The notes below the pieces were generated by a model, which was not told the origin of the DNA, did not search any database, and saw nothing but the letters and a program-made list of their open reading frames with translations. Shown here in pieces: positions 15,633 to 33,439 of a DNA stretch of 33,479 bases (positions are counted from its first letter, which is position 1; every line of letters starts with the position of its first letter). Both the position numbers and the translations under genes were made by a program. Origin of the DNA: a virus; the IMG/VR virus record IMGVR_UViG_3300007540_000047, positions 1 through 33,479 of that record, one strand, 5' to 3'.

Positions 15633-16212
15633 ATGAAGGTAAGACTTCTAGCAACTCATTTTTTGATAAAAGTGCCCCGTTGTATGTTGTGCTCAAGGTT
15701 TTATCAAAAGAAATATTAAAAGTTTCGTTTGCTACAGGCATAATTAAGATTATCTGACAAGAGAGTTTTCCTGATGGATCAAACGTATCATAATCCAGAA
15801 TCATTTCCTGATATGGTTGATAATCTTTCCAGTATTCTGCAAGGTCGAACGACATCTCTAGATCGATCTCTCCGTTTTGACCAAACAATTGATACACTAT
15901 TGCTCGACCAGTCTGCTTATAATCATTGATTCCTGTAGGAACTTCACTTATTGCTGGCTTGTAAACGCCCTCAGCAACAATTAATCGGTTTTTTGAAAAC
16001 TGTTTGTTAGAAATCGCGGACCGCATTGCTTCTGCTTGTAGGTATAATTGTCGAGCAATAAGAGTTCTGTCTCCCGTAAGGTTTTCAAACTGAACCCGAG
16101 TTCCCCGCGCACCTAAAAATTTAGCAATTGTTATTCCTGGCGCAAGAGCGGTGGAAGAAGTAATTTCAGACCTAAAGTTCGGATTGTATAGCGGATCAAC
16201 CAAATATATCAT
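15628..16212 (-). CDS. conserved protein beside gp25; possible degenerate M15-like peptidase
   Basis: The 194-residue protein has conserved-looking segments: YLVDPLYNPNFRSE (3-16), FLGARGTRVQFENL (about 33-46), RLIVAEGVYKPA (about 76-87), YKQTGRAIVYQLFGQNGEID (about 98-117) and FDLAEYWKDYQ. The order of the last segments recalls an M15 D,D-peptidase core (H..G.A.D, then a second metal site). However, the positions that would carry the zinc-binding His and Asp are Tyr here, so no active site is visible. The start overlaps the spike stop by four bases (ATGA), which couples it to the hub and spike genes. It is probably a baseplate part or assembly factor. The peptidase resemblance is a weak inference. 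Confidence 0.6.
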   Translation of the reverse strand: MIYLVDPLYNPNFRSEITSSTALAPGITIAKFLGARGTRVQFENLTGDRTLIARQLYLQAEAMRSAISNKQFSKNRLIVAEGVYKPAISEVPTGINDYKQTGRAIVYQLFGQNGEIDLEMSFDLAEYWKDYQPYQEMILDYDTFDPSGKLSCQIILIMPVANETFNISFDKTLSTTYNGALLSKNELLEVLPSL

Positions 16213-17663
16213 GACGGAGTAAACCTCTTGCTTCTGTTTTCTGATGGGTTATTTCCAAGCAACGTTCTCCCAAATCTCAAAGAAGGTTTCTTGCTAGACG
16301 CTCTTCCCAATGCTGGTGGTCTTTGGTCTGCATAACTAGAAGACAATCTGCCCTCCCCTATCAATGCGCCAATAAATTTTTCATTATTAAAAATAGATGG
16401 ATCTCTCAACTTCGACCGTATCTCGTGAATGTTAGGTTCTCTTGTCATAAGATCGTCGTAATCGTCCGACTTCAAGATTTCCAGTTTTAATTCATCCCCT
16501 GGATCAACCTGTACATCTCGTATGCCATAATTACCTGAGGATAATATTGGAGTCATAATAGCGGTGGTTGGCATATCCGCTGTTCTTTGTATTTGTACGT
16601 ATGGCATTTCGGTTGGATAAGATTTCTTAGTCTTGGCAACAGCAGCACCAGTGGGAGCAGAACCAGCGGTTGTAGCGTAATCGGCGAAAGGCACATGCCC
16701 AGCTTCATCAGCAAAGATTGCTGTAATTGCTTCGGTCGCTTTACCGACAAGGGTTCCATAGTAAGTCGTACCTCCGATTCCAGCACCGTCTGGAGGTCCA
16801 GAGTAGGTTTTACCGTAATGGTCGATATAATGCCCACCGATTGTTCCTGTAACGCCCAAAACGCTTACAGTGTCTCCGTTAATGTTGGTGATTTGAGAAG
16901 AAGCAACCCATTCGTCAACCGCAGTAGTTATTAATTTTGTTCCTGCCGTAAATTCTACAGACTTCTCAACATAGTTTTTTTGATCACCTTTAACAAATAC
17001 ATTGCGGTCAGACAACAGAGTTTCTGTATTGACGTCAATAACTTTAAGATTGCGCGAACCTTTGACGGTATGATTCTGATTCTCGTCAACAGTCTTGGTG
17101 TGATTGCGGTGTATTTTTTCTGTCTTATTGCCAGCAGTCGTAATATTAATATTGCCTTCTACTTCTAAGTTATAATCTCCTGCAATTTTAACATTGACAT
17201 TACCTTTGTATACTAGATCTGCTTGACCCTCAACAATAACAACGTCATCACCACCAGTAATTGATACTTTTTTATTTACAGAAGAGAACAATACGCTTCC
17301 GTCAGCGCGCAACTCAACCCCAGCACCAGTTCGATGTTTTATTAGTATACGTTCTCCGCCTGGAGTATCATCAACATGTATGGCATGCCCTGCAGGGGTT
17401 TCTTGCACTTGGTTGTGTGGATATGTAGAAGGTTTTTGATCAAAGAATTTGACCGAAACACCGTAATCACCGCCGCCAGAAAATAATTCTTCGACGGTTT
17501 CGCCACGAGCAGATTTATTAATAGAAGAACCAAAATAGTATTCTCTATCTGGGTATTCTCCGGCAGCATCGCTAAATCCATCTCTGGGTATTCCAATAGA
17601 GTTTTCTCTACCTTCGCCCAACTCTAACGATCTAGATGTGAAGTTGTCCCTATTATTGGTCAT
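16209..17663 (-). CDS. baseplate central spike protein (C-terminal, gp5/VgrG-like beta-helix)
   Basis: The 484-residue protein carries the spike part of T4 gp5 without a lysozyme. Residues 28-55 (DGFSDAAGEYPDREYY and following) resemble the linker that follows the OB fold in T4 gp5 (GFSDPTGQYP). Residues 90-122 have the gp5/VgrG entry motif (HAIHVDDTPGGERILIKHRT, then GVELRADGSV). From about 125 to 275 there are short beta repeats with Val/Ile and Gly at regular steps (NVNVKIAGDYNLEVEGNINI), as in a triple-stranded beta-helix. The tail after 350 is polar and may hold a tip or a binding site for a PAAR-like tip. It starts by TAATG coupling to the amidase gene. A membrane-piercing trimeric spike is very likely. 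Confidence 0.8.
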   Translation of the reverse strand: MTNNRDNFTSRSLELGEGRENSIGIPRDGFSDAAGEYPDREYYFGSSINKSARGETVEELFSGGGDYGVSVKFFDQKPSTYPHNQVQETPAGHAIHVDDTPGGERILIKHRTGAGVELRADGSVLFSSVNKKVSITGGDDVVIVEGQADLVYKGNVNVKIAGDYNLEVEGNINITTAGNKTEKIHRNHTKTVDENQNHTVKGSRNLKVIDVNTETLLSDRNVFVKGDQKNYVEKSVEFTAGTKLITTAVDEWVASSQITNINGDTVSVLGVTGTIGGHYIDHYGKTYSGPPDGAGIGGTTYYGTLVGKATEAITAIFADEAGHVPFADYATTAGSAPTGAAVAKTKKSYPTEMPYVQIQRTADMPTTAIMTPILSSGNYGIRDVQVDPGDELKLEILKSDDYDDLMTREPNIHEIRSKLRDPSIFNNEKFIGALIGEGRLSSSYADQRPPALGRASSKKPSLRFGRTLLGNNPSENRSKRFTPS

Positions 17664-19417
17664 TATGTAATTCTCGTGTTGTTTATTTCAGCAGAGGTAA
17701 GGGGCGGCTGATTAAACGTGTTTGAGAATAGACTTTTTTTCCCGAACACATCATCAACATAATCCCTAACATCAAATCCTGGATCTTCTTCATTAATGTC
17801 TAGGTCGTTATGCCCCAGTATCTGCCCGCCTGGAAATGCTAGGTAGAAAGATCTACAGATTTCTTGGAAAGAAGACATTTGACTTCTCGTTAAAGACGCT
17901 GATGATCTATATTCTATGGGGTTTGGCGTTCCAGAAGCACAATTCAATCCACCCACAAATACAACGGCAAGACTTCTAGCATTATGTCCATTTATTTGAG
18001 CGTGTTCGCCTTCAATTCCAGAGGGTCTTCCACGTTGAACCGAACCATCTCTCCTAATGACATAATGATAACCAATACCATTATACCCCAATCCAACAAA
18101 CGCTCTGTTAATTTCCTCAGATCCAATGTTAGCGTTGGTATATGTATCGCTCCAATGAACAACCATTTCTGTAATTTCTCTGCTGACATTTTTAAATTCA
18201 GCTTCCAATTCTTCGACAGAAGATATGAATGAAAAAATATAGTCTTCCGCCCCAACTCCATTATTCCACCTAGAATTATCTTGCCCGACTCTAAATGGGT
18301 CTGCAAAAACGCTGTTGCTAGTGTCAACAATTACTGTACCCGCTACTGTAGTATCTAGATCTAACAAAAATTTATCAATTTGTTTTGTCGATTTACCGGT
18401 ACTTTTTCTTAAAATAGATAATGCCTCAACCCTTTCGCTGGGAGTTCCTTGTGCCAGCGCGGCAATTCGTTTTTGTTCTTTTGGTGGAACATCAACACCA
18501 GCATTTCGGAATATGTTTGCGACACTATTTGGGTCAACTTTTTGGACCAAATCTTGTGCAAAACCTAAATCTGATTTAGGAAAAATACGATCAACATCAC
18601 TTTGAAATTGATTTGTTTTATTGACAACACCAGCTCGAGTGTTCGAATAATCTCTCACTGATTCAAATAGATTTTTTGGATTAGTCGCTCCGGAAACAAG
18701 GTTCAACGTTTTTGATAAGTTAGAAACTGTTCCGCCATTGTTCATCATACTAGCAACGTCTGCTATAGCATTTGCACCCTCGGCGGAAACAGAATCGAGA
18801 GATAACTGTGAAGCAGTCGAACCATCAGTAATTGCGGTAGAAACCATTTGATCAACAACTGCTTGCGTTCTAGAGGAAATAGCATTGACGGCACTAGGAC
18901 TAGAGAACGCTCCGATCTTTCCAGGTAACGATCCTAAAGATTTTGTAATACCTTTTGCGTTAGCAGCAGAAATCATATTCTGCAAAAATCCTGGCGCTGC
19001 ACCAAGACCCGTCATTTTAGAGATTATAGTAGAGATATCAGTGGCAGGTCCAGGAGTTTTTATTATCTCATTTACATAACCGCTGTCTGAGTAACTAATA
19101 TTAATTGTAACTCCTGGGTTTATGTTGAGCGCACTAGTGTTAGTGTTTAATGCATTATTTATCATTCCAGGAGCAGCTTCCGAAGTTACTAATCCTTCGG
19201 TTGGATCTAAATTGATTGCACCAAGAACATCTGTTTTAGAACTAAGAGATTTAATTCCGCCAACCGTGTCACTTGTCTTTGCTCCCACTGCTGTCTGTTT
19301 TACAGCGGAAAACGTTTCTTTGGTTACGTCTGCAGCGGCATCAACAGAGCCATAAGATTTGATTACATTCTGAGGAAGTTTAACCGTTTCTTTTAATTTA
19401 TCTTTTGATATTGTCAT
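17663..19417 (-). CDS. hub-associated N-acetylmuramoyl-L-alanine amidase (Amidase_2 type)
   Basis: The 584-residue protein has a low-complexity Ser/Ala/Thr/Asn-rich N-terminal region (about 1-370) with no recognisable fold. An Amidase_2/T7-lysozyme/AmpD-like domain follows (about 385-565). Candidate zinc ligands are His421 (VVHWSDT), His536 (GHNDLD) and Asp545 (EDPGF), as in AmpD-type enzymes. The YHYVIRRDGSVQRGRP segment (about 450-465) and SLAVVFVGG (about 482-490) are the usual core strands. The basic residue expected before DPG is Glu here. It would cut the amide bond between muramic acid and the stem peptide, letting the tail tube through the wall. It lies between the OB-fold hub gene and the spike gene, coupled at both ends by TAATG, so it is probably the virion-borne wall hydrolase that replaces the gp5 lysozyme. 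Confidence 0.85.
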   Translation of the reverse strand: MTISKDKLKETVKLPQNVIKSYGSVDAAADVTKETFSAVKQTAVGAKTSDTVGGIKSLSSKTDVLGAINLDPTEGLVTSEAAPGMINNALNTNTSALNINPGVTINISYSDSGYVNEIIKTPGPATDISTIISKMTGLGAAPGFLQNMISAANAKGITKSLGSLPGKIGAFSSPSAVNAISSRTQAVVDQMVSTAITDGSTASQLSLDSVSAEGANAIADVASMMNNGGTVSNLSKTLNLVSGATNPKNLFESVRDYSNTRAGVVNKTNQFQSDVDRIFPKSDLGFAQDLVQKVDPNSVANIFRNAGVDVPPKEQKRIAALAQGTPSERVEALSILRKSTGKSTKQIDKFLLDLDTTVAGTVIVDTSNSVFADPFRVGQDNSRWNNGVGAEDYIFSFISSVEELEAEFKNVSREITEMVVHWSDTYTNANIGSEEINRAFVGLGYNGIGYHYVIRRDGSVQRGRPSGIEGEHAQINGHNARSLAVVFVGGLNCASGTPNPIEYRSSASLTRSQMSSFQEICRSFYLAFPGGQILGHNDLDINEEDPGFDVRDYVDDVFGKKSLFSNTFNQPPLTSAEINNTRIT

Positions 19418-20346
19418 TATCTACTCGTTGCCTGTTCATATGCAGTTGTGGCTAATTCAATCGCGAGGTTTTTTCCTCGATCAGTTGTTATCGAAGATTT
19501 AGTGATATTACCTCCAGCAATTGTGCGATCTTTCATATAATATCTACTTATCACATCTACAGAACCTCCATCTCCATCAATAACTTCGGTCTTTAATAAT
19601 TTAGAATTTGCTGGTGAAAACGTTGTCCTCAACTCATATAACACGAATTGAAGTTGAATCGAAAACCTAGTATTTAATTGTTTCTGAGAAAATTGTCCAG
19701 CAAATTGAAATAAAGCATTAAACCTACTTCCTCCACGAATCCATTTACCTATCCCGAAATATGGCGAATTTAAATTATCAGGATCATGCGTGACAAATTG
19801 TGAAATTGCCTCAATACAACCAGTTATTCCTGCTGCTTGTCTTGGCGTATAATTATTATCAATGAAGAACATCATACATTGACTTCTTCTTTTTGCAACA
19901 TTCACTTTAGGCAATTCATCGTCTTCGATGCTTTCTGTAACAGTATTAAGTTTTCTATCGGGATCATAGTTTGACTTGAACTGACTAAACGCTTTATCTT
20001 TTGAGGATTTTATCTGAACGTCTGTGGGAAATTCTAATTTGGTCATAGATCCCAACACTAAAGGTATTTGGGAAGACTTACCGTCCATGAATATTCCATA
20101 GACGAATGCTCCAGGAAGAACTTGCGGAATCCTTCCAATGCCCGAACTACCACCCTCAGTCAAAGGAAGCGCAACAGTCGCCCATGGCAAATCTGATTCG
20201 GGTACATTACCGCTATATGGATCATGTACGCCATGTATTCTTATTTTTATTCTTCCCTCTAGTCCAGGAGGAGGAGATGAATTGACGACGACTCCGATAA
20301 ACCAACGAGTTTCATCTCCATAATATTCGCTATTAACTGTCTTCAT
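19417..20346 (-). CDS. gp5-like hub OB-fold protein with a degraded tail-lysozyme domain
   Basis: Residues about 13-105 match the N-terminal OB fold of T4 gp5: RWFIGVVVNSSPPPGLEGRI, then GVHDPYSG, SDLPWATVALPL, GGSSGIG and GAFVYGIFMDG. Residues about 153-243 resemble the phage tail lysozyme family: MMFFIDNNYTPRQAAGITG, then a Gly-rich FGIGKWIRGG and QLQFVLYEL. In that family the catalytic Glu sits in a GNLxxES motif; here the segment reads GCIEAIS, so Ile181 replaces it and only Glu179 is nearby. The domain may be structural only. T4 gp5 (575 aa) combines OB fold, lysozyme and spike; here the OB part is a separate 309-residue protein. It is TAATG-coupled to the hub gene upstream and the amidase downstream. 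Confidence 0.8.
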   Translation of the reverse strand: MKTVNSEYYGDETRWFIGVVVNSSPPPGLEGRIKIRIHGVHDPYSGNVPESDLPWATVALPLTEGGSSGIGRIPQVLPGAFVYGIFMDGKSSQIPLVLGSMTKLEFPTDVQIKSSKDKAFSQFKSNYDPDRKLNTVTESIEDDELPKVNVAKRRSQCMMFFIDNNYTPRQAAGITGCIEAISQFVTHDPDNLNSPYFGIGKWIRGGSRFNALFQFAGQFSQKQLNTRFSIQLQFVLYELRTTFSPANSKLLKTEVIDGDGGSVDVISRYYMKDRTIAGGNITKSSITTDRGKNLAIELATTAYEQATSR

Positions 20347-22495: not shown

Positions 22496-23538
22496 TAGTA
22501 TTTACCCTCGCTTATATCCGCTCTAGATAATGTTCTTGACTCTCTAAACGTCATAGAGATATCAACCTCTTGGAAATTTCCGTCTTTATGCATACCCATA
22601 GAAGTTGCATTGTATGTAGTAGAGAAATTTTCAAGGTAGCAAGGTAATAGTTTTGTTGCAACTGCTATATCATTATAAAACATTTTAATTAAAAATCTGC
22701 TAGGAAATCGATAACCAATGGGGATTGATCCAGAACCATCTTGTTCTTGACCCAAAAATAATTCTTCAGGATATAGTTCTGTTCGGAATAATTTAATAAT
22801 TTCTGTTATGTTACGCGCCTCTTTGGACGACTGCGGTATCATCTTAAAGGAGAATGAAAACGTTCGCATATTGACCGATTTAAATAATGCCCTTGTATTG
22901 GGATTTACAGTAATCCTTGTGGCGGATTTAACCCCAGCGGCAACTGCGTCCCCAGCCATACCACTAAGTTGCGTCGATACTAATTTGCCCACGCCATCAG
23001 AAGCGGGTCCAGTAAACTGATCAACCAATGAAGAAATCCCTTGCCCAACGCCTAGAGCGCGGCCGCCTTGTACAGCAGCTTCGGCAGCACCACCGCTCAT
23101 ACCAAGGTCTTGATTCTCATATTGAACCCCATCAGCAAATTGAATTGCTTGCGGTAAATATAGAGTAACTCTTCGTCCTGGTTGTACTTTGGGTTCTTTA
23201 AATGATCTTCTTCTTGGTTGCAACCCTTGCGTCTCTGCTTGTGCTCTTCTTTCTGCTTCCTCTTTCTGTTCTTGAGCTGTTTTCTTTATTAGATCTCCTC
23301 TCTCGTCTTTTTCATTATCTCTGGTGTTTTGGTCAACTTCTGAAGTAACGCCTGACAGTATTTCGCTAAAATTAGAAACGACTTCGTCGACTACAGAAAA
23401 AACAATTCTTCCTTTGTAATCAGAAACATCATCTACCGGAAAGGATAAATTAGTATCATCAGTTGGGTCTGAAGCAGTATAAGATCCGATGACTTTTTCT
23501 TGAGAAACATCAGAGTTTTGAGGTTGGGCGGTGGCCAT
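22495..23538 (-). CDS. gp48: baseplate tail tube protein gp48
   Basis: The 347-residue protein is close in size to T4 gp48 (364). The N-terminal 130 residues are polar and charged, with a KKTAQEQKEEAERRAQAE helix. A Gly/Ala-rich middle contains QGGRALGVGQGISSLVDQF. The C-terminal half carries the tube-like fold: RTFSFSFKMIPQSSKEARNI (about 225-244), then the end FQEVDISMTFRESRTLSRAD (about 322-341), matching T4 FTLEITMREIITLNRA. gp48 caps the hub and is the platform from which the tube polymerises. It is the first gene of the long minus-strand hub block and has a TATAAATA box 34 nt upstream. Confidence 0.85.
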   Translation of the reverse strand: MATAQPQNSDVSQEKVIGSYTASDPTDDTNLSFPVDDVSDYKGRIVFSVVDEVVSNFSEILSGVTSEVDQNTRDNEKDERGDLIKKTAQEQKEEAERRAQAETQGLQPRRRSFKEPKVQPGRRVTLYLPQAIQFADGVQYENQDLGMSGGAAEAAVQGGRALGVGQGISSLVDQFTGPASDGVGKLVSTQLSGMAGDAVAAGVKSATRITVNPNTRALFKSVNMRTFSFSFKMIPQSSKEARNITEIIKLFRTELYPEELFLGQEQDGSGSIPIGYRFPSRFLIKMFYNDIAVATKLLPCYLENFSTTYNATSMGMHKDGNFQEVDISMTFRESRTLSRADISEGKY

Positions 23539-23550
23539 TATAATGCACTC

Positions 23551-23558
23551 TATAAATA
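23551..23558 (+). promoter_or_regulatory. T4-type late promoter box TATAAATA for gp4 operon
   Basis: A perfect TATAAATA on the plus strand lies 30 nt before the gp4 ATG. It would start the rightward late block gp4 to tape measure. It faces the minus-strand box at 23573-23580 with 14 bp between them. Confidence 0.72.
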
Positions 23559-23572
23559 TTGGTGATTACGTT

Positions 23573-23580
23573 TATTTATA
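23573..23580 (-). promoter_or_regulatory. T4-type late promoter box TATAAATA for gp48 operon
   Basis: A perfect TATAAATA on the minus strand lies 34 nt before the gp48 ATG. Together with 23551-23558 it makes an inverted pair pointing at each other, so transcripts from the two promoters would start almost at the same base pair. Confidence 0.72.
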
Positions 23581-23588
23581 GTGAAAAA

Positions 23589-24080
23589 ATGGCATATTCT
23601 GGAAGATATAAACCCAAAAACCCAAGTAAGTATGCAGGTGACCCGACAATGGTTGTATATAGGTCAATGTGGGAAAAATATTGTATGATGCATTTTGATG
23701 GATCGTCTGATGTTAAATCATGGTCGAGCGAAGAAACCGTTATTCCTTATGTTTATGATGTGGATAAAAAGATGCATCGATACTATATGGATTTCAAAGT
23801 AACCTGGAGAGATGGTAGTGTCACATTGGTTGAAGTAAAACCAAACAAAGAAACCACACCGCCCAAAAAAGTTAATACTCGAAACAAGAAGTATCTGACC
23901 GAAGCACTCACCTATGTTAAGAATATGAACAAGTGGGAAGCAGCAAACGAATATGCAAAAGACCGTGGTTGGAGGTTTGAGATATGGACTGAGGTTGAGT
24001 TGAGAGAGAAGGGTATAATGAAGAAACCGCTCAAACCTCTGAAAAAACTGAAACCATATTCTAGAAAAAAGACTAAATAG
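23589..24080 (+). CDS. gp4: head completion protein gp4 (nuclease-like fold)
   Basis: The 163-residue protein matches T4 gp4 (150 aa) along its length: MAYSGRYKPKNPSKYAGDP at the start, then YRSMWEKYCM (about 24-33), VIPYVYD, RYYMDFKV and LVEVKPNKETTPP (about 81-93), and YVKNMNKWEAANEYAKDRGW. The pattern of Glu in the WEK helix, Asp in YMDFKV and ExK in VEVKP is that of a PD-(D/E)xK nuclease fold, as noted for the gp4/TnsA-like group. gp4 is needed for DNA-filled heads to join tails. I chose the ATG at 23589 because the protein then begins like T4 gp4 and follows the late promoter by 30 nt. An in-frame ATG at 23559 lies directly against the promoter box and is unlikely to be used. Confidence 0.93.
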   Translation: MAYSGRYKPKNPSKYAGDPTMVVYRSMWEKYCMMHFDGSSDVKSWSSEETVIPYVYDVDKKMHRYYMDFKVTWRDGSVTLVEVKPNKETTPPKKVNTRNKKYLTEALTYVKNMNKWEAANEYAKDRGWRFEIWTEVELREKGIMKKPLKPLKKLKPYSRKKTK

Positions 24081-24085
24081 TATTC

Positions 24086-24679
24086 ATGAGCAACTTATTT
24101 AAAACATTAGAACTGGCAGCGTTTAGGTCTGGGATCACCCCAAGGACAGCGCAGTCTCGCGATTGGTTTCGTAAAAAAGCACAAGCAATTCGTGGAGTTA
24201 ATCGCGAAGCGTTGATGAAAGAAGAAGAACTAAAGAAATCGAGTAGTGAAATCGCCGGACACATGTACATGTTCTTCTATGACCCCAAGACAAAGGATCA
24301 ACTTCCTTACTATGATAAATTCCCATTAGTGATTGTTGTTGGACCAGCACAGGGTGGTTTTTATGGATTAAACCTACACTATCTTCCCCAAACTTTGAGG
24401 GCGAAGTTCTTAGATGGGTTGTTGGATATAACAAATAATAAGAAATATGACGATTCGACCAAGTTTAAGTTGTCATACTCATTTTTAAAGAGATCATCAA
24501 AATTAAAGTATTTTGCCCCTTGCTTCAAACACTATTTAACTGATCACGTTAGAGGAAAGTTTGCAAAAGTAAGTGCTCCTGAATATGAAATTGCAGTATT
24601 TTTACCAACGGCAGATTGGGCTAAAGGTAATCCCAATAAAGTATACGCAGACTCAAGGAAAGTAATCAGTGGCATATAA
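24086..24679 (+). CDS. conserved T4-superfamily protein between gp4 and the tube gene
   Basis: The 197-residue protein has a basic N-terminal helical part (about 1-55) and then conserved-looking segments: MYMFFYDPKTKDQLPYYDKF (about 60-79), PLVIVV, GGFYGLNLHYLPQTLRAKFL (about 90-109), KFKLSYSFLKRSSKLKYFAP (about 126-145), KHYLTDHVRGKF and FLPTADW. This protein type occurs in many marine and other T4-like myoviruses, but I cannot name a proven function. In T4, gene 2 (DNA end protector) is next to gene 4, so a head or packaging role is possible from position only. It starts 5 nt after the gp4 stop and overlaps the next gene by 11 nt. Confidence 0.7.
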   Translation: MSNLFKTLELAAFRSGITPRTAQSRDWFRKKAQAIRGVNREALMKEEELKKSSSEIAGHMYMFFYDPKTKDQLPYYDKFPLVIVVGPAQGGFYGLNLHYLPQTLRAKFLDGLLDITNNKKYDDSTKFKLSYSFLKRSSKLKYFAPCFKHYLTDHVRGKFAKVSAPEYEIAVFLPTADWAKGNPNKVYADSRKVISGI

Positions 24680-25382
24680 TATAGAAGAAATGAAAAACCT
24701 AATATCTTCCGGTGGCGGAATTTCGAAGGCGAATCAGTACAGAATTGAACTGTCCGCAGAGAACAACGCAAAACGTTTAGATACGATGTGCCGTGCTGTT
24801 AATATGCCAGGAAGACAAATTCTTACCACAGAGCGTAGAATTGGCATAACCACGAAACTTATCCCTTATGGATATGCTAAAGAAAATGTTTCCATGACAT
24901 TCACTGTCCTTAACGATTCTTTTGTTAGGTATTATTTTGAGTCGTGGATGAACACGATTGTAAGTAACACTTCCTACGAAGTGGGTTATTATAACGATTT
25001 CACTCGACAAATCACTGTAAAGCAAATGGCCCCAAACCAAAACGTCGCAGAATTAAAAAAGAAAATAACACCGATCGGTAAAAATACTCAACAATCTAAC
25101 GACATTTCCGTTGGGCGATCAAATCAAGTAACTTCTCTTCCCGAACGAGTAATCTATACTTGCATTTTGGAAGAAGCATATCCCATATCAATAACAGGAA
25201 TAAATTATTCAGACAATTCTCAAGATATGCCTGTAGAGTTGACAGTGGAGTTTAGTTATAAAAATTGGAGAACAAATACTAGTGTCAATCAACAGGAGAG
25301 ATTACAACAATCTAATGCATTCAATAGAGGAAAATTAAAAATCTCAACACAAGCAGAAGCGGAGTTGGATAGGGGTATATAA
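24669..25382 (+). CDS. gp19-family tail tube-like protein, probably gp54 tube initiator
   Basis: The 237-residue protein is of the T4 gp19/gp54 tube family. It contains RLDTMCRAVNMPGRQILTTE (about 36-55), a strand pair IPYGYAKENVSMTFTVLNDS (about 65-84), FVRYYFESWMNTIV (about 85-98), a central YTCILEEAYPISITGINYSD (about 162-181) and a final strand MPVELTVEFSYKNWR (about 187-201), the usual tube beta-barrel signature. The start is GTG at 24669, preceded by the Shine-Dalgarno sequence AAGGAAA at a 7-nt distance, overlapping the upstream gene by 11 nt. An ATG eight codons in lacks a comparable site. Because it lies with hub genes and no sheath gene is near, gp54 (tube initiator) is more likely than the main tube gp19, but either is possible. 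Confidence 0.75.
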   Translation: MAYNIEEMKNLISSGGGISKANQYRIELSAENNAKRLDTMCRAVNMPGRQILTTERRIGITTKLIPYGYAKENVSMTFTVLNDSFVRYYFESWMNTIVSNTSYEVGYYNDFTRQITVKQMAPNQNVAELKKKITPIGKNTQQSNDISVGRSNQVTSLPERVIYTCILEEAYPISITGINYSDNSQDMPVELTVEFSYKNWRTNTSVNQQERLQQSNAFNRGKLKISTQAEAELDRGI

Positions 25383-25417
25383 TTTACAAAATGATTTTAT
25401 TATAAACGGAGAATGAA

Positions 25418-26128
25418 ATGGCGTTACCTAAGTTAAATGATAGTCCGAAGTTTGAGTTGACTGTCCCCTCTACGCAAAAGAGCGTGAGGTTTAGACCTTA
25501 TTTGGTCAAAGAAGAAAAAGTTTTATTGATGGCGTTTGAGTCAGGAGATGAGACAGCAACATTGGCAGCAGTATTGGACACTATAGTGTCTTGTGTGCAG
25601 GGCGATATTAATCCCTCTACGTTGACAACGTTTGATGTAGAATATATGTTCACTCAGATTAGAGCAAAATCTGTAGGGGAAAAAACCAAGGTTGGCGTAA
25701 CTTGTGGTGAATGTAATACTAAGAACGAGGTATCAATTAATTTAGAAGAAGTCAAAGTTAAGATACCAGATAACAAAGTATCAAATAAAATTGCTATTAG
25801 TGATGAGATTACAATAGAAATGGGATATCCTTCTTATAGTAATCTTACCGATGGATCTCATATGCTTAATGGGAATTCAGAAGGTGCCTTTGATTTAGTA
25901 GCGAGTTGTATGGTTGCCATTGAAACAGAAGAAGAACGAATTGCAACCAGAGACGAACCAAAAGATAGTATTAAAGAGTTTCTAGAATCAATGACATCAT
26001 CTCAGTTCCTTATGTTGGCAGAGTATTTAAAGGAAATGCCCAAGACAACGTATGAACTAGAGTTTACTTGTGAGCATTGCGGTGCTGAAAATAAAAGAAC
26101 AATAGAAGGAATGCAGAATTTTTTCTAA
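25418..26128 (+). CDS. gp26: baseplate hub assembly protein gp26 (zinc-binding type)
   Basis: The 236-residue protein is of the T4 baseplate (gp26) family; T4 gp26 has 208 aa. Features are FELTVPSTQKSVRFRPYLVK followed by EEKVLLMAFE (about 12-41), QGDINPSTLTTFDVEYMFTQ (about 61-80), a CGEC pair near 95-98 and a second pair CEHC near 220-223, which together could bind one zinc ion. The start has the Shine-Dalgarno sequence CGGAG. The last codons AAT TTT TTC TAA contain a slippery heptamer, so a share of ribosomes should continue into gp51. The position after a tube-type gene and before the tape measure suggests a tail-assembly chaperone role like lambda gpG. Confidence 0.9.
   Translation: MALPKLNDSPKFELTVPSTQKSVRFRPYLVKEEKVLLMAFESGDETATLAAVLDTIVSCVQGDINPSTLTTFDVEYMFTQIRAKSVGEKTKVGVTCGECNTKNEVSINLEEVKVKIPDNKVSNKIAISDEITIEMGYPSYSNLTDGSHMLNGNSEGAFDLVASCMVAIETEEERIATRDEPKDSIKEFLESMTSSQFLMLAEYLKEMPKTTYELEFTCEHCGAENKRTIEGMQNFF
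26104..26128 (+). promoter_or_regulatory. predicted programmed -1 ribosomal frameshift site (gp26 to gp51)
   Basis: The heptamer T TTT TTC (26119-26125) is in the phase required for -1 slippage relative to gp26 and is followed at once by the gp26 stop TAA (26126-26128). A Shine-Dalgarno-like AGAAGGA (26104-26110) ends 8 nt before the heptamer, similar to the stimulator of dnaX. Only weak hairpins are visible downstream. After slippage the next codon is CTA at 26125, in the gp51 frame. Confidence 0.72.
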
Positions 26129-26316
26129 TATGCCTCTCTCATGACAGTTTGGTAAATCATTATAAGTTGAATTTTCAGTTAATGCAGCACCACAAATATT
26201 CATTAACGGAATTGAACGAAATGTTACCTTGGGAGAGGGAAATTTATGTCATGATGTTAATTGAACACGTTAAAGAAGAGAACGAAAGGATTAAACAGCA
26301 AAATGGCGGACGATAA
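26125..26316 (+). CDS. gp51: gp51-like tail assembly domain, expressed as frameshift extension of gp26
   Basis: The -1 frame relative to gp26 stays open from within gp26 to TAA at 26314-26316. It encodes 63 residues after the slip site, including SLVNHYKLNFQLMQHHKYSL, then TELNEMLPWEREIYVMMLIE and HVKEENERIK. The pattern of a short helix, then LPWEREIY, then a helix fits the small gp51-like and lambda gpT-like assembly domains of tail chaperones. There is no ATG until 26182, which is already inside the conserved part, and the ATG at 26130 is in another frame and stops after four codons. Expression as a gp26-gp51 fusion (about 299 aa; join 25418-26125 and 26125-26316) is therefore the simplest reading. 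Initiation at TTG 26149 or ATG 26182 is the alternative. Confidence 0.75.
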   Translation, partial: LICLSHDSLVNHYKLNFQLMQHHKYSLTELNEMLPWEREIYVMMLIEHVKEENERIKQQNGGR

Positions 26317-28435
26317 AAATATTATTGAACCAATGGGTGGTGATTTTCTGCCAGCTTCTACTCAGCTGGCAGAAGTCACTAGAGCATTGCAGATTGCCAA
26401 CGAAAGTAGATTAACTATTTCGGAAAGGGAATCTGAGGAAGAGACTGACGCTCTTAAGATCTTCCAATCTATTGACAAGAATATTAAAAGTATCGCGGAA
26501 TCCATCAAGAATTTTTCCAAAGATTTGGTGCAAGAAGTTCAGATACTCAATGAATTCCAAATTGAACAAGCAAATAACAAATTGATAAAAGACCAACAGG
26601 ATGATAATAAAAAGAAAGAAGAAAATAGAGAGAAAGGACTAGTTTCGAGCGCCAAGGCAGATTTTGGTAAAGGAAAGGAAGACGCTGCAAAAGAGATCGG
26701 AGAAAAAGGTCTTCTCAAATACATTGCTGATATTACTGGATTTGGAGGAACTCTTTCTACAGTTATGAAAAGTCTTGGAACTTTTTCTGCTATAATAGGT
26801 ACTGTGTTAGGGCCAGCAATGACTTACATAGCAGGTACAACGCTTCCTGCTATAACCGGCGCTATAGCCTCTATGGGTGCTGCATTAACCTCTATGGGTG
26901 CTTTTATAATGTCAACAGTTGTTCCTGCTATAACGGCATTTGCAACAGCAGCAATGACGGTTCTTGCTCCGGTTGCTTTAGTTCTTGCCGGAGCATTGGC
27001 AGCAATCGAGTTTATCAAAGGGGTTGTTGATGGATTTACTGCTAACGCAGAAGATGGATTTGGCACAAAAATTCTAAGAGGTCTTACTCGGGGCATTGAA
27101 GAAGTTCTTGATATGTTTATCATGTGGCCGCTGGATCAAATAAAGAACCTTGTTTCTTGGGTCGCCGGAGCACTTGGGTTTGCTGATGTCGAGAAGGCAC
27201 TGGACAACTTTAGTTTTCAAGAATCGTTTGCCGAAATAATGGATAGTTTCGAAGAATGGATAACTTCTATACCCACTGCTATTTCTGAATTTTTCTCCGA
27301 CATGATCGACTCCCTCGGCATTGTACCGATCATAGAAACTATTGGGGAAAAACTATCTAATTTCTTCGAACCAGTCACATCAATGTTCTCCTTTATTGGT
27401 GATATCCTAGATGATGCCGGTAATGCGATCGCAGAGTTTGTTTCGGGCGATTTCTTTGACCTATCAAAAATCAAGAGCATGATGACCAACATGTTTGCTG
27501 AGATCGGCGTTCCAAGAATAGAGTTTGATGTTCCTGTTATTGGTAAGGTGGGGTTTGGTCCTTTCTATCCGTTTATGCCTGATCAAGTTGATATGGGCGG
27601 TGGGAAAACAGGTAGCAATGCCGTGATAAGTGCAAAAGAATCATCAGAAATAGAATCCACAACTACTATGGATTCTGCTGGAAATGTTGTGGAATCGGCC
27701 CAAGAGAGAAACGCATCGGCGATCGCTTCATTAGATTCTGGATCTGTTGGAAACCAATACTCAGAAGGTATGAGTTCGAGGATCTTACAGCAAGAAATGG
27801 TTACAGAGAATGGTGGTGGCGAGAAGTTCAAAGAATCGTTTGGTGATTTTGATTTTGAAAAAGGCGAGGGAACTATTAGTATATCTCAGACCGACCCTTC
27901 TAACGAATTGAACAACATGACAGAAGAATTTACTGGTCTTGGTCCGGTTGCATTTGGTCAGGCAAGGAGACTAGTTGCTTCTGGGGCGTCTATCGAAGAA
28001 GTAAGAACATTCTTGAAACAAAAAGAGAAGTCAGTATTCAAATTAGTGAGCGAGATGATTTTTGGTGCACCTGAATATAAAGAATCTGAATATCCCGTCA
28101 GCGAACGAGGTGGTCCAGGAGATGTGGGTGTTCCAGGAAGTCCAGGAGATGTGGGTGTTCCAGGAAATCCAGGAACTTTGGGCGTTCCAGGAAGTCCAGG
28201 AACTGTGAGTGTTTCGCCAACGCAAATAATGACCAAACCAGATCTCACCGTTAGAGCAGCATCTGCCGAAGCACTTACAAAAGAAACAAAAGAAAGAGAA
28301 GACGCAAAAGCATCCGCTAGTGCTGCCCCAGTAATAGTTAATGCGCCTTCAACCGTTAGCAACAACAGCGTTAGTAATCAGTCTATGATTATGGATACAC
28401 CAAGTGCACTTGACGGATTGTCTTTAGGATACTAA
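26303..28435 (+). CDS. tape-measure-like tail protein (gp29 position)
   Basis: The 710-residue protein has a charged helical N-terminus (about 1-140, rich in Lys, Glu and Asn). A long hydrophobic central region of membrane-like helices rich in Ala, Gly, Ile and Thr follows (about 145-245, for example VLAPVALVLAGALAAIEFIK). Amphipathic helices come next (about 250-400), then a polar C-terminal part with a collagen-like PGxxGVPGS repeat (about 603-640) and an Ala/Ser/Val-rich end. This layout fits a tail length-determining protein, held in the tube and ejected to form a membrane channel. The start chosen is ATG at 26303 (MADDKN), which overlaps gp51 by 14 nt. An in-frame ATG at 26261 lies within gp51 and has no Shine-Dalgarno sequence. 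Direct similarity to T4 gp29 is not visible; the call rests on architecture and position after gp26/gp51. Confidence 0.7.
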   Translation: MADDKNIIEPMGGDFLPASTQLAEVTRALQIANESRLTISERESEEETDALKIFQSIDKNIKSIAESIKNFSKDLVQEVQILNEFQIEQANNKLIKDQQDDNKKKEENREKGLVSSAKADFGKGKEDAAKEIGEKGLLKYIADITGFGGTLSTVMKSLGTFSAIIGTVLGPAMTYIAGTTLPAITGAIASMGAALTSMGAFIMSTVVPAITAFATAAMTVLAPVALVLAGALAAIEFIKGVVDGFTANAEDGFGTKILRGLTRGIEEVLDMFIMWPLDQIKNLVSWVAGALGFADVEKALDNFSFQESFAEIMDSFEEWITSIPTAISEFFSDMIDSLGIVPIIETIGEKLSNFFEPVTSMFSFIGDILDDAGNAIAEFVSGDFFDLSKIKSMMTNMFAEIGVPRIEFDVPVIGKVGFGPFYPFMPDQVDMGGGKTGSNAVISAKESSEIESTTTMDSAGNVVESAQERNASAIASLDSGSVGNQYSEGMSSRILQQEMVTENGGGEKFKESFGDFDFEKGEGTISISQTDPSNELNNMTEEFTGLGPVAFGQARRLVASGASIEEVRTFLKQKEKSVFKLVSEMIFGAPEYKESEYPVSERGGPGDVGVPGSPGDVGVPGNPGTLGVPGSPGTVSVSPTQIMTKPDLTVRAASAEALTKETKEREDAKASASAAPVIVNAPSTVSNNSVSNQSMIMDTPSALDGLSLGY
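28114..28212 (+). repeat. 27-nt coding repeat, four copies (collagen-like PGxxGVPGS)
   Basis: Units starting at 28114, 28141, 28168 and 28195 begin with TCCAGGA and encode PGDVGVPGS, PGDVGVPGN, PGTLGVPGS and PGTVSV. Every third or fourth residue is Gly-Pro rich, like a short collagen-type or flexible linker. Near-identity of the first two copies suggests recent duplication. Confidence 0.85.
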
Positions 28436-28460
28436 TAAAAAAGGCACCCGAAGGTGCCTT
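28436..28460 (-). terminator. Rho-independent terminator of the gp32 transcript
   Basis: On the minus strand AAGGCACC-TTCG-GGTGCCTT forms a perfect 8-bp stem with a UUCG tetraloop, directly followed by a T run (TTTT after the stem, counting into TTTTATTAG). On the plus strand the same stem has no T run after it, so it works mainly for leftward transcription from gp32, though it may also protect the 3' end of the tape-measure mRNA, which ends one base earlier. Confidence 0.88.
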
Positions 28461-28610
28461 AGTGATTGTTCTGGTGGTTTTAAGGAGAACACACTCCCGT
28501 CTTACATGTGTTCCAACGCGGGATACCCAAGGTCATCAACCAGCGTCAAGTTTACGGCAGATGAACAAAATGCATTATGCCTTTGTTCGCACGATTGCCT
28601 GACGAGCAAA
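28461..28610. other. non-coding, structured 150-bp segment between convergent genes
   Basis: There is no open frame. Several inverted repeats are present: GAACACA (28487-28493) with TGTGTTC (28507-28513); TCCCG in that loop (28495-28499) with CGGGA downstream (28519-28523), which would form a pseudoknot; and GAACAAA (28563-28569) with TTTGTTC (28582-28588), enclosed by GGCA (28556-28559) and TGCC (28596-28599). It would be transcribed as the 3' untranslated region of gp32 before the terminator. It could be a small RNA or a stability element; strand and function are not known. Confidence 0.5.
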
Positions 28611-29507
28611 TTAGTCTTCTTGTGCTAACTTAGCAAAGTAAGACATAGTATCATCTTCATCATCGTCAGAACTAGCAGAAGCGATCTCAGGCGCGGGTTT
28701 GACCTTCATAGGAGCAGGTTCAGAAACCTCTTCTATTGCACGAAACGCTTGAGTAGACGCTGACGATTCACCAAGAACTAATGCCAAACGCGAAGAAAGT
28801 TCTTCGTATGTCTTATAACTCGCTGGATCAGTAAACTCGTTCAGGTCATAAACCTTCCCGTAGATCTCTTCTAACTCATCATCGTCTTGCGATAATGCTT
28901 TGGGAGAACTGAATTCAGACTTATCATAGTTACGATAACCTTCGACGTTTCGGATCTTTAGTTTGAAAGACGCACCTTCCCAAAAGTCGAATGGGTTGAT
29001 AGGATCTTCATCCTGAAATTGTGGTTGCATTACATCCATGATCTTATCAAAGATTTTCTTACCAAAGACAAACAGTTTTACTTGTCCTTCGTTAGATGGA
29101 TTTGCAGCGTCTTGTTCAACCAAGACATTTGCGACATAATGCAAACGGCGCTTACGCTCACGAGCAACATCTTTGTCGCGGTCGTTACCAGAGTTCCACA
29201 ATTTGCTGTTAGATTCTGATACAGGATCTTGTTGACCAATCGAAGTCAAAGACTTCTCGATATACCACTGACCAGTTGGACCTTTAAATCCATGATCCCA
29301 GTAGCGTACCCATGGCAATTCGTTACCCTCTGCTGGAGGTAGAAAACGAAGAACTGCATAACCGTTACCTGCTTTATCAACAGTTGGTTTCCAGATTCTC
29401 TCGTCAACATAAGATTTCTTATCAGATGGACCGCTATCACCAGCGGCAGCAGATACGAGTTTAGAGATGGCACTTGCGCGATTGCGCTTTAGATTTTCAA
29501 AAGACAT
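28611..29507 (-). CDS. gp32: single-stranded DNA-binding protein gp32
   Basis: The 298-residue protein matches T4 gp32 (301 aa) in size and plan. A basic N-terminal self-association segment (NLKRNRASAISKL, 5-17) is followed by the OB-fold core with WKPTVDKAGNGYAVLRFLPP (about 39-58), WVRYWDHGFKGPTGQWYIEK (about 65-84), SLTSIGQQDPVSESNSKLWN and VLVEQDAANPSNEGQVKLFV, then an acidic C-terminal tail (SSDDDEDDTMSYFAKL). The protein contains no Cys, so the zinc-binding His/Cys set of T4 gp32 is absent, as in marine relatives. It coats ssDNA in replication, recombination and repair and recruits partners through the acidic tail. The start has a good AAGGAAA site, and a strong terminator follows. Confidence 0.93.
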   Translation of the reverse strand: MSFENLKRNRASAISKLVSAAAGDSGPSDKKSYVDERIWKPTVDKAGNGYAVLRFLPPAEGNELPWVRYWDHGFKGPTGQWYIEKSLTSIGQQDPVSESNSKLWNSGNDRDKDVARERKRRLHYVANVLVEQDAANPSNEGQVKLFVFGKKIFDKIMDVMQPQFQDEDPINPFDFWEGASFKLKIRNVEGYRNYDKSEFSSPKALSQDDDELEEIYGKVYDLNEFTDPASYKTYEELSSRLALVLGESSASTQAFRAIEEVSEPAPMKVKPAPEIASASSDDDEDDTMSYFAKLAQED

Positions 29508-33275: not shown

Positions 33276-33359
33276 TGGTGGAGGGGGCTGGATTCGAACC
33301 AGCGTAGCTCTCGCGTCAGATTTACAGTCTGATGGTTTTAACCACTCACCCACCCCTCC
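33276..33359 (-). tRNA. tRNA-Tyr (anticodon GTA)
   Basis: An 84-nt class II tRNA. The acceptor arm GGAGGGG pairs with CCCCTCC, the anticodon stem CAGA/TCTG encloses TGTA with anticodon GTA, a long variable arm (about ACGCGAGAGCTACG) follows, and the T arm has GGTTCGAATCC. The 3' CCA is encoded. A long variable arm with GTA is the bacterial tRNA-Tyr type. Confidence 0.95.
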
Positions 33360-33363
33360 AAAT

Positions 33364-33439
33364 TGGCTCCCTGTCGTGGGCTCGAACCACGGACCCAATG
33401 ATTAACAGTCATTTGCTCTACCAACTGAGCTAACAGGGA
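33364..33439 (-). tRNA. tRNA-Asn (anticodon GTT)
   Basis: A 76-nt tRNA. The acceptor TCCCTGT pairs with ACAGGGA, the D arm is GCTCAGTTGGTAGAGC, the anticodon loop is CTGTTAA with anticodon GTT, and the T arm is CGTGGTTCGAGCCCACG. The discriminator base is G and the 3' CCA is encoded. It lies 4 nt upstream of tRNA-Tyr on the same strand, so both are cut from one transcript. Confidence 0.95.

Follow-up and report, generated by a model that had tools for sequence, protein, structure and literature searches.

The window analysed here comes from a marine T4-type phage and corresponds to one entire virus record (33,479 bases). On its plus strand it carries, in this order, a tail-tube-like gene (phrog_45), the gp26/gp51 pair (PF12322 and phrog_634) and a tape-measure-like gene (phrog_305), the overlapping reading frames of the pair being placed between the other two genes as in the lambda G/GT type (Table 1). 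The order is the one given in a preliminary description of this DNA and it stands, with a weak tape-measure assignment: the ORF at 26261-28435 matches phrog_305 (tail length tape measure) at E 3.1e-5, and its best match is phrog_27688, a family of unknown function. This gene overlaps the end of the gp51-type frame, its likely start at 26303 preceding the stop of that frame at 26316.

Table 1. Features of the gp26/gp51 locus and of the neighbouring genes.
Feature	Position	Strand	Basis and remarks
Tail-tube-like gene	24669..25382	+	upstream of gp26; phrog_45 tail tube, E 1.4e-25
TAC-N (gp26), 236 aa, zero-frame product, lambda gpG-like	25418..26128	+	PF12322, phrog_150, predicted fold
Shine-Dalgarno-like AGAAGGA, probable upstream stimulator	26104..26110	+	8 nt 5' of heptamer
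Slippery heptamer T_TTT_TTC, in phase with gp26	26119..26125	+	raw sequence; kept in relatives
Zero-frame stop TAA	26126..26128	+	raw sequence; abuts heptamer
-1 frame extension (TAC-C, gp51-type)	26119..26316	+	open frame; phrog_634, E 1.2e-28; phrog_150 columns 228-280
Stem 5' arm CCUCUCUCA	26133..26141	+	7 nt 3' of heptamer; codons of LSH; covariation
Stem 3' arm UGGGAGAGG	26230..26238	+	codons W-E-R of PWERE; covariation
Tape-measure-like gene	26303..28435	+	likely ATG 26303; ORF listed from TTG 26261

In the raw sequence gp26 ends AAT TTT TTC TAA. The preliminary description had placed an in-phase T_TTT_TTC against the stop codon and was correct to the base; its further statements, that AGAAGGA ends 8 nt before the heptamer and that the -1 frame is open from within gp26 to 26316 and encodes a gp51-type domain, were likewise confirmed, the frame being free of stops from 26095 to the stop codon at 26314-26316. 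The heptamer conforms to the X_XXY_YYZ pattern, and between 21692 and 29585 a run of six T (T6) is found on the plus strand only at 26119. The first start-like codons 3' of the heptamer in the -1 frame are TTG 26149, TTG 26167 and ATG 26182, the first and last of which had been listed earlier and the second overlooked. A one-base slip at the heptamer would yield a gp26-gp51 fusion of 299 amino acids (length derived by hand) with the junction NFF-LICL, for which the predicted junction peptide, also derived by hand, is TIEGMQNFFLICLSHDSLVNHYK.

Several other features of the window can be mentioned. Two minus-strand genes match phrog_430 (gp5-like hub/lysozyme), one in its first columns (19420-20346) and one in its later columns (16212-17663), and an amidase-like gene (17666-19417) separates the two; window positions 16212-20346 may thus encode a putative hub protein split around a lysis domain. 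The plus-strand head-closure (gp4-type) gene at 23559-24080 matches the TnsA-like endonuclease family PF08722 (E 1.7e-19) as well as phrog_218 (head closure). A terminator-like 8-bp hairpin with a T-rich tail, scored on the minus strand, is located at 28441-28460, just 3' of the tape-measure-like gene, and tRNA genes for Tyr (gta) and Asn (gtt) lie on the minus strand at 33276-33439. Promoter-like sites in 23400-28700 showed no excess over shuffled sequences (10 vs 14.3).

Both parts of the T4 gp26/gp51 family, the PF12322 domain and the gp51 C-terminal domain (phrog_634, labelled 'baseplate hub assembly catalyst'), are encoded at the locus. The gp26 product matches PF12322 at E 1.7e-58. It corresponds to columns 5-232 of phrog_150 (length 282) and the -1 product to columns 228-280, so that the phrog_150 profile spans both parts. 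A search of gp26 against the PDB by sequence gave zero matches up to E 1. The AlphaFold2 model of gp26 is confident (mean pLDDT 88.5, pTM 0.82), and a fold search over 838 aligned PDB chains ranked 3fgx_A first (Z 7.9, residues 5-96 of gp26) and the HK97 tail assembly chaperone 2ob9_A second (Z 7.2, residues 1-86), the next match having a Z of 4.1; values below 8 are modest. We take 3fgx to be a TAC relative. With Foldseek the chaperone rows had the highest probabilities shown (0.63, 0.54 and 0.44), their E-values being not significant (0.5-3.9) and unrelated rows coming first by E. On the basis of the model, the N-terminal domain of gp26 is predicted to resemble the fold of the HK97 tail assembly chaperone.

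Relatives of the locus were selected by similarity of the gp26 protein, independently of the slip site. The resulting 402 records (401 loci and the window) include 395 with a readable gp26 end, five lacking that end and two giving no plus-strand hit (L082 and L401), of which L082 is the T4 locus, where gp26 is on the other strand. Many loci are the same contigs fetched repeatedly, and the unique complete sequences number 211. T6 occurs in phase within the last gp26 codons of 392 of the 395 readable relatives, the exceptions being Vibrio phage D524, Salmonella phage Det7 and Citrobacter phage Moon (L090, L093 and L094). The seventh base of the heptamer is free among the unique sequences (C 96, T 74, A 38, G 3), and T6 is thus kept throughout while the second encoded residue is either Phe (170) or Leu (41). 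At other Phe-Phe pairs of the same genes T6 is found in 12 of 99 cases, and codon usage alone would predict it in 97 of the 211 sequences, which points to conservation of the slip site beyond chance. The frame relation is also kept: gp51 lies in the -1 frame in all 79 loci of the first set in which it was detected, and every one of the 156 unique complete sequences counted first has a -1 ORF that runs for 58-71 codons starting at the heptamer. When positions 25000-27000 were compared with phage genomes by blastn, all matches in the best 10 of 15 phage records fell within 26063-26310, over the slip site and TAC-C, with identities of 69% for C48C1, 73% for Pelagibacter phage Mosig and 68% for S-PM2, as expected from overlapping constraints.

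A Shine-Dalgarno-like tract 5' of the heptamer is usual among the relatives. Of the 211 sequences, 184 have a match of at least 4 nt to the anti-Shine-Dalgarno sequence 6-20 nt 5' of the heptamer, compared with 22.9% of control windows inside gp26, and 88 have a match of at least 5 nt, compared with 6.7% of control windows. The purine triplets mostly begin 10-15 nt 5' of the heptamer. In this Shine-Dalgarno-like tract the locus has a probable upstream frameshift stimulator of the bacterial type.

A further element, absent from the preliminary description, was recognized 3' of the heptamer. A repeat search showed that CCTCTCTCA (26133-26141) can pair with TGGGAGAGG (26230-26238) over 9 bp, and the minimum-energy fold of this stretch of the window forms that long-range stem. 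Its spacer of 7 nt is within the 5-9 nt range of downstream stimulatory structures. The fold of the window alone is unexceptional relative to dinucleotide shuffles (z -1.00; z +0.76 for 26090-26200). The stem covaries in the clade of the window, defined by the LSH motif and comprising 149 unique rows. Because both arms are coding (LSH and WER), it is mostly wobble positions that are free to vary. The central pair 26136-26235 is C-G in 59 rows, T-A in 58 and T-G in 4; it fails in 5 C-A rows and in 23 rows with CTA or CTG. Tree-aware tests were restricted to rows with C or T on one side and G or A on the other, that is, 126 of 149 for the central pair and 131 of 149 for the outer pair 26133-26238. 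On a tree of gp26 minus the stem region, the central pair had 9 supported independent contrasts, on average 7.6 in the same direction and 0.0 in the opposite one (median p 0.008), and the outer pair only 4 (3.4 and 0.0; p 0.25). Concordance of the central pair in 117 of 126 rows, against 63.0 (sd 9.8) when simulated along the tree, was reached in none of 50,000 runs. The outer pair, concordant in 122 of 131 rows, was also matched in none of 50,000 simulations (0.0012 with both sides simulated) and ranked third of the 308 pyrimidine-purine third-position pairs.

When covariation was ranked with no structure assumed, the two pairs came second and fourth among 20,301 column pairs for 106 LSH rows, and 8th and 12th for the pooled set of 149 rows, LSH and non-LSH together. 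The top covarying column pair overall, at offsets -40 and 7, is read as lineage signal. In 95 distinct LSH rows, 92.3% of the alignment cells of the stem are paired, against 43-67% for slid versions of the stem. An inner helix in the fold of the window was rejected, as it did not recur in the consensus of the clade, and Rfam 15 covariance models gave zero matches up to E 1 in 25900-26500.

One alternative concerns this stem alone: base composition or codon bias in two conserved protein motifs, LSH and PWERE, would make the arms covary, with no RNA stem behind it. Both arms do encode conserved residues; in the 95 rows five of the nine pairs are invariant and hence uninformative, and while three of five covariation measures beat all 500 shuffles, two do not (pairs with two-sided change, 2 vs 1.6; further pair types, 5 vs 5.2). 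Simulation along the tree, however, does not reproduce the covariation: the z of the central pair, 5.43, is the largest of the 308, and the other 307 pairs reach 2.44 at most. Moreover, the 117-nt stretch folds lower than synonymous shuffles that preserve the protein (mean z -2.71 over 115 sequences with CTC or CTT). We consider this alternative improbable and regard the long-range stem as very likely a real RNA structure; that it acts as a frameshift stimulator is probable.

The long-range stem is confined to the LSH group. Among 43 non-LSH rows the covariation is absent, the two pairs ranking 18,838 and 16,832, and the stem was rejected as a candidate for non-LSH sequences such as Syn19, P-SSM4 and others, in which the covarying pairs do not rank. 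Pooled RNAalifold of 48 non-LSH sequences was almost structureless, and individual groups possess different structures beginning at about the same place after the heptamer. The MAH group (15 sequences) has an 11-bp local hairpin (local z -4.54). A GATCC-GGATC hairpin in the MIH group (5 sequences), a hairpin in the LFE group (3 sequences) and a 14-bp local hairpin in the single sequence of S-PM2 serve as illustrations only. The LSH-CTR group (21 sequences) has weak local structure overall (mean z -0.98), and a CTATC-GATAG type hairpin with matching changes is clear in seven of its members (L213, L216, L218, L227, L233, L244 and L245). For LLH, the group consensus favours pairs other than the CTCCA-TGGAG hairpin of the local fold of Syn19. 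A third kind of stem was observed in the four-sequence consensus of the LAH group (L319, L320, L329), where the TGCCTC that follows the heptamer can form pairs with a GAGGCA some 50 nt further on, in place of the PWERE codons. The division between stem and hairpins does not follow the family name Kyanoviridae, since C48C1 and Pelagibacter phage Mosig, which are both assigned to it, form the long-range stem when folded. The long-range stem seems to have been exchanged in evolution, more than once, for local hairpins starting at the same place.

Among named T4-type phages with a single gene, the heptamer is present in 14 of the 18 examined: C48C1, Syn19, P-SSM4, BUCT-ZZ01, RHph_Y68, Mendera, IC12, phiWae14, nt-1, V07, Aeh1, 65, Pelagibacter phage Mosig and S-PM2. 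These include cyanophages, a Pelagibacter phage, Rhizobium and Stenotrophomonas phages and four Straboviridae (Aeh1, 65, nt-1 and V07). The preliminary description had proposed that gp26 and gp51 are the counterpart of G and GT and that this phage keeps the frameshift; the counterpart is well supported, and 'this phage' proves too narrow. The heptamer is lacking in four, the Ackermannviridae Det7, Ds23CZ and 3M and the Vibrio phage D524, all of which retain the -1 overlap and have TTTTCA in place of T6 (sites at L093 3304, L410 3307, L411 3262 and L090 3268, three Ackermannviridae and D524). Perhaps they join the frames by a single-tRNA slip from TTC to TTT. As for Citrobacter phage Moon (L094 1-1554), its gp27/gp28-like genes are annotated as 'tape measure chaperone', one of them as 'GT-like fusion protein', an annotation in conflict with gp26/gp51 as the chaperones.

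In T4 and its near kin, gp26 and a fused gp51 are two genes. Residues 1-201 of T4 gp51 (249 aa) match the family of gp26, PF12322 (E 3.9e-52), and the protein covers columns 13-280 of phrog_150 in one chain, while T4 gp26 matches only the first part of that profile; by this comparison, T4 gp51 has the architecture of a one-frame gp26+gp51 fusion (TAC-NC). An unrooted tree was built from 31 TAC domains, namely six gp26 and seven gp51 N-domains of the T-even type and 18 single-gene rows. The T-even-type gp26 and gp51 N-domains fall together on one side of a branch supported at 98/96, opposite the 18 single-gene rows. Support is 100/99 for the gp51 subgroup and 90/81 (not starred) for the gp26 subgroup, in which 44RR gp26 forms a long branch. 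Because the frameshift form is so widely spread, we infer that the T4 line probably replaced the frameshift by gene duplication, a direction read onto an unrooted tree.

These comparisons bear on a second alternative, that of a small, free gp51 for which ribosomes would reinitiate beyond the gp26 stop or begin internally at TTG 26149, TTG 26167 or ATG 26182. Public records, those of cyanophages among them, annotate a separate small gp51, and an ATG precedes codon 12 of the -1 frame in 49 of the 211 relatives. A start codon together with a Shine-Dalgarno match before codon 12 is found, however, in only 6 of 211, and the first possible starts are scattered over many different codons among relatives. 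The conservation of the -1 frame reaches back to the heptamer, and a free protein would not need T6 to be conserved, nor would it account for T4 gp51 being a fusion. The preliminary description had named as contrary evidence relatives in which the heptamer is lost and gp51 has its own Shine-Dalgarno sequence and ATG. The nearest case is Vibrio D524, in which a TAATG overlap is present at the gp26 stop, and a clear Shine-Dalgarno sequence was not seen by eye. The combination it had suggested looking for, a heptamer kept while gp51 lacks a start, is largely what the relatives display, and a free gp51 is very unlikely. Least likely of all is transcriptional slippage on the T-run as the source of the fusion, which could draw on the 8-T runs in 67 and 7-T runs in 7 of the 211 relatives, since the run is only 6 T long in 137, no sequence has a T before the heptamer, position and phase fit X_XXY_YYZ, and the ribosome is the expected target of both the upstream anti-Shine-Dalgarno tract and the stem downstream.

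A conserved slip site followed by a shifted second ORF without a start of its own is the arrangement of G/GT-type genes. The three parts of the signal point the same way as the relation of the frames, the predicted fold, the order of the genes and the fused gp51 of T4, and we consider it highly probable that a single gene here encodes a tail assembly chaperone of the lambda G/GT type, in which gp26 and gp51 are joined by -1 ribosomal frameshifting. From one message, two tail-building helper proteins would very probably be made through a backward slip of the ribosome by one base. Most ribosomes would translate gp26 (TAC-N) and terminate at 26126. A minority would pause on the heptamer at 26119-26125, held by the Shine-Dalgarno-like tract behind and by the long-range stem (26133-26141/26230-26238) ahead, slip back one base and read on to 26316, giving the 299-aa fusion (TAC-NC). 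Both forms may then coat the tape-measure protein, with the TAC-C extension recruiting tube subunits. In T4 and its near kin the single gene would have been duplicated, gp26 keeping the short form and gp51 becoming a one-frame long form. Against the frameshift stand the three Ackermannviridae and D524, with a -1 overlap and no T6, and the 49 of 211 relatives with an early ATG.

The covarying long-range stem predicts an RNA control of the chaperone ratio. More speculatively, and rather doubtfully, the stem might make the ratio of the two chaperones self-limiting: ribosomes stopping at 26126 would never reach the 3' arm at 26230-26238 and would leave the stem intact, and a shifted ribosome would translate through it and so open the stimulator for its followers. 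If true, the stem would hold back the synthesis of the GT-type form on each message.

The closest known systems are lambda and HK97. In lambda, two overlapping ORFs lie between the tube and tape-measure genes and are joined by a -1 slip where the first one ends, and the ratio of the chaperones is described as crucial for tail assembly in passages of a review that also presents G-T frameshifting as widely conserved 'except T4' (Atkins et al. 2016, PMC5009743). Gene order and overlapping ORFs are alike here, as is the predicted -1 slip, and the N-terminal fold predicted for gp26 is like that of 2ob9. The present gp26 differs in being longer (236 aa), with a fold match that covers only residues 1-96, and in giving no hit in the PDB by sequence up to E 1; the phage of the window has in addition the T6 heptamer and the long-range stem. 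T4 gp26 and gp51 belong to the same families as the genes described here (PF12322, phrog_150 and phrog_634); they differ as two divergently placed genes, with gp51 a one-frame fusion and T6 absent at the gp26 end.

The analogy with G and GT, proposed in the preliminary description, is not new and was preceded by the work of Vladimirov, Gautam and Davidson (2022, Virology 566:9), whose title, as listed in PMC10885494, concerns the tail assembly chaperones of T4-like phages. A later article credits them with poly-T slip sites in the TAC-N genes of T4-like phages (PMC12846349). From these two citing sources, both the chaperone identity and the poly-T slip sites were apparently already published in 2022. 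Their system very probably comprises the same genes, and the wording of the title argues for a mechanism other than frameshifting. The TAC locus of the Vandenendeviridae phage Adele is also alike, with a -1 frame open across 56 alleles and a poly-T site at the end of TAC-N; its site is GTTTTT, and the passages of PMC12846349 on this locus make no mention of a downstream structure. A full-text search of open-licence literature likewise returned, among the matches listed, no title describing a downstream stem.

The comparison also throws light on older gene inventories. Cyanophage gp51 was described as having about 20% of the usual length and lacking the first ~200 residues, and gp51 as missing only in Aeh1, in passages of Sullivan et al. 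(2010, PMC3037559). The -1 extension is nevertheless present in Aeh1, in a stretch of its locus (L403, between 3277 and 3444) without an annotated gene. The 'truncated' gp51 of cyanophages and vibriophages and the seeming absence of gp51 from Aeh1 can be explained because the missing part is gp26. The core idea being known, what is added here is the long-range stem with its covariation, the apparent switch from it to local hairpins, and this explanation of short gp51 proteins. Compared with the single-gene form, the two genes of T4 are best read as its replacement by duplicates, and would be a natural example of gene duplication taking the place of recoding.
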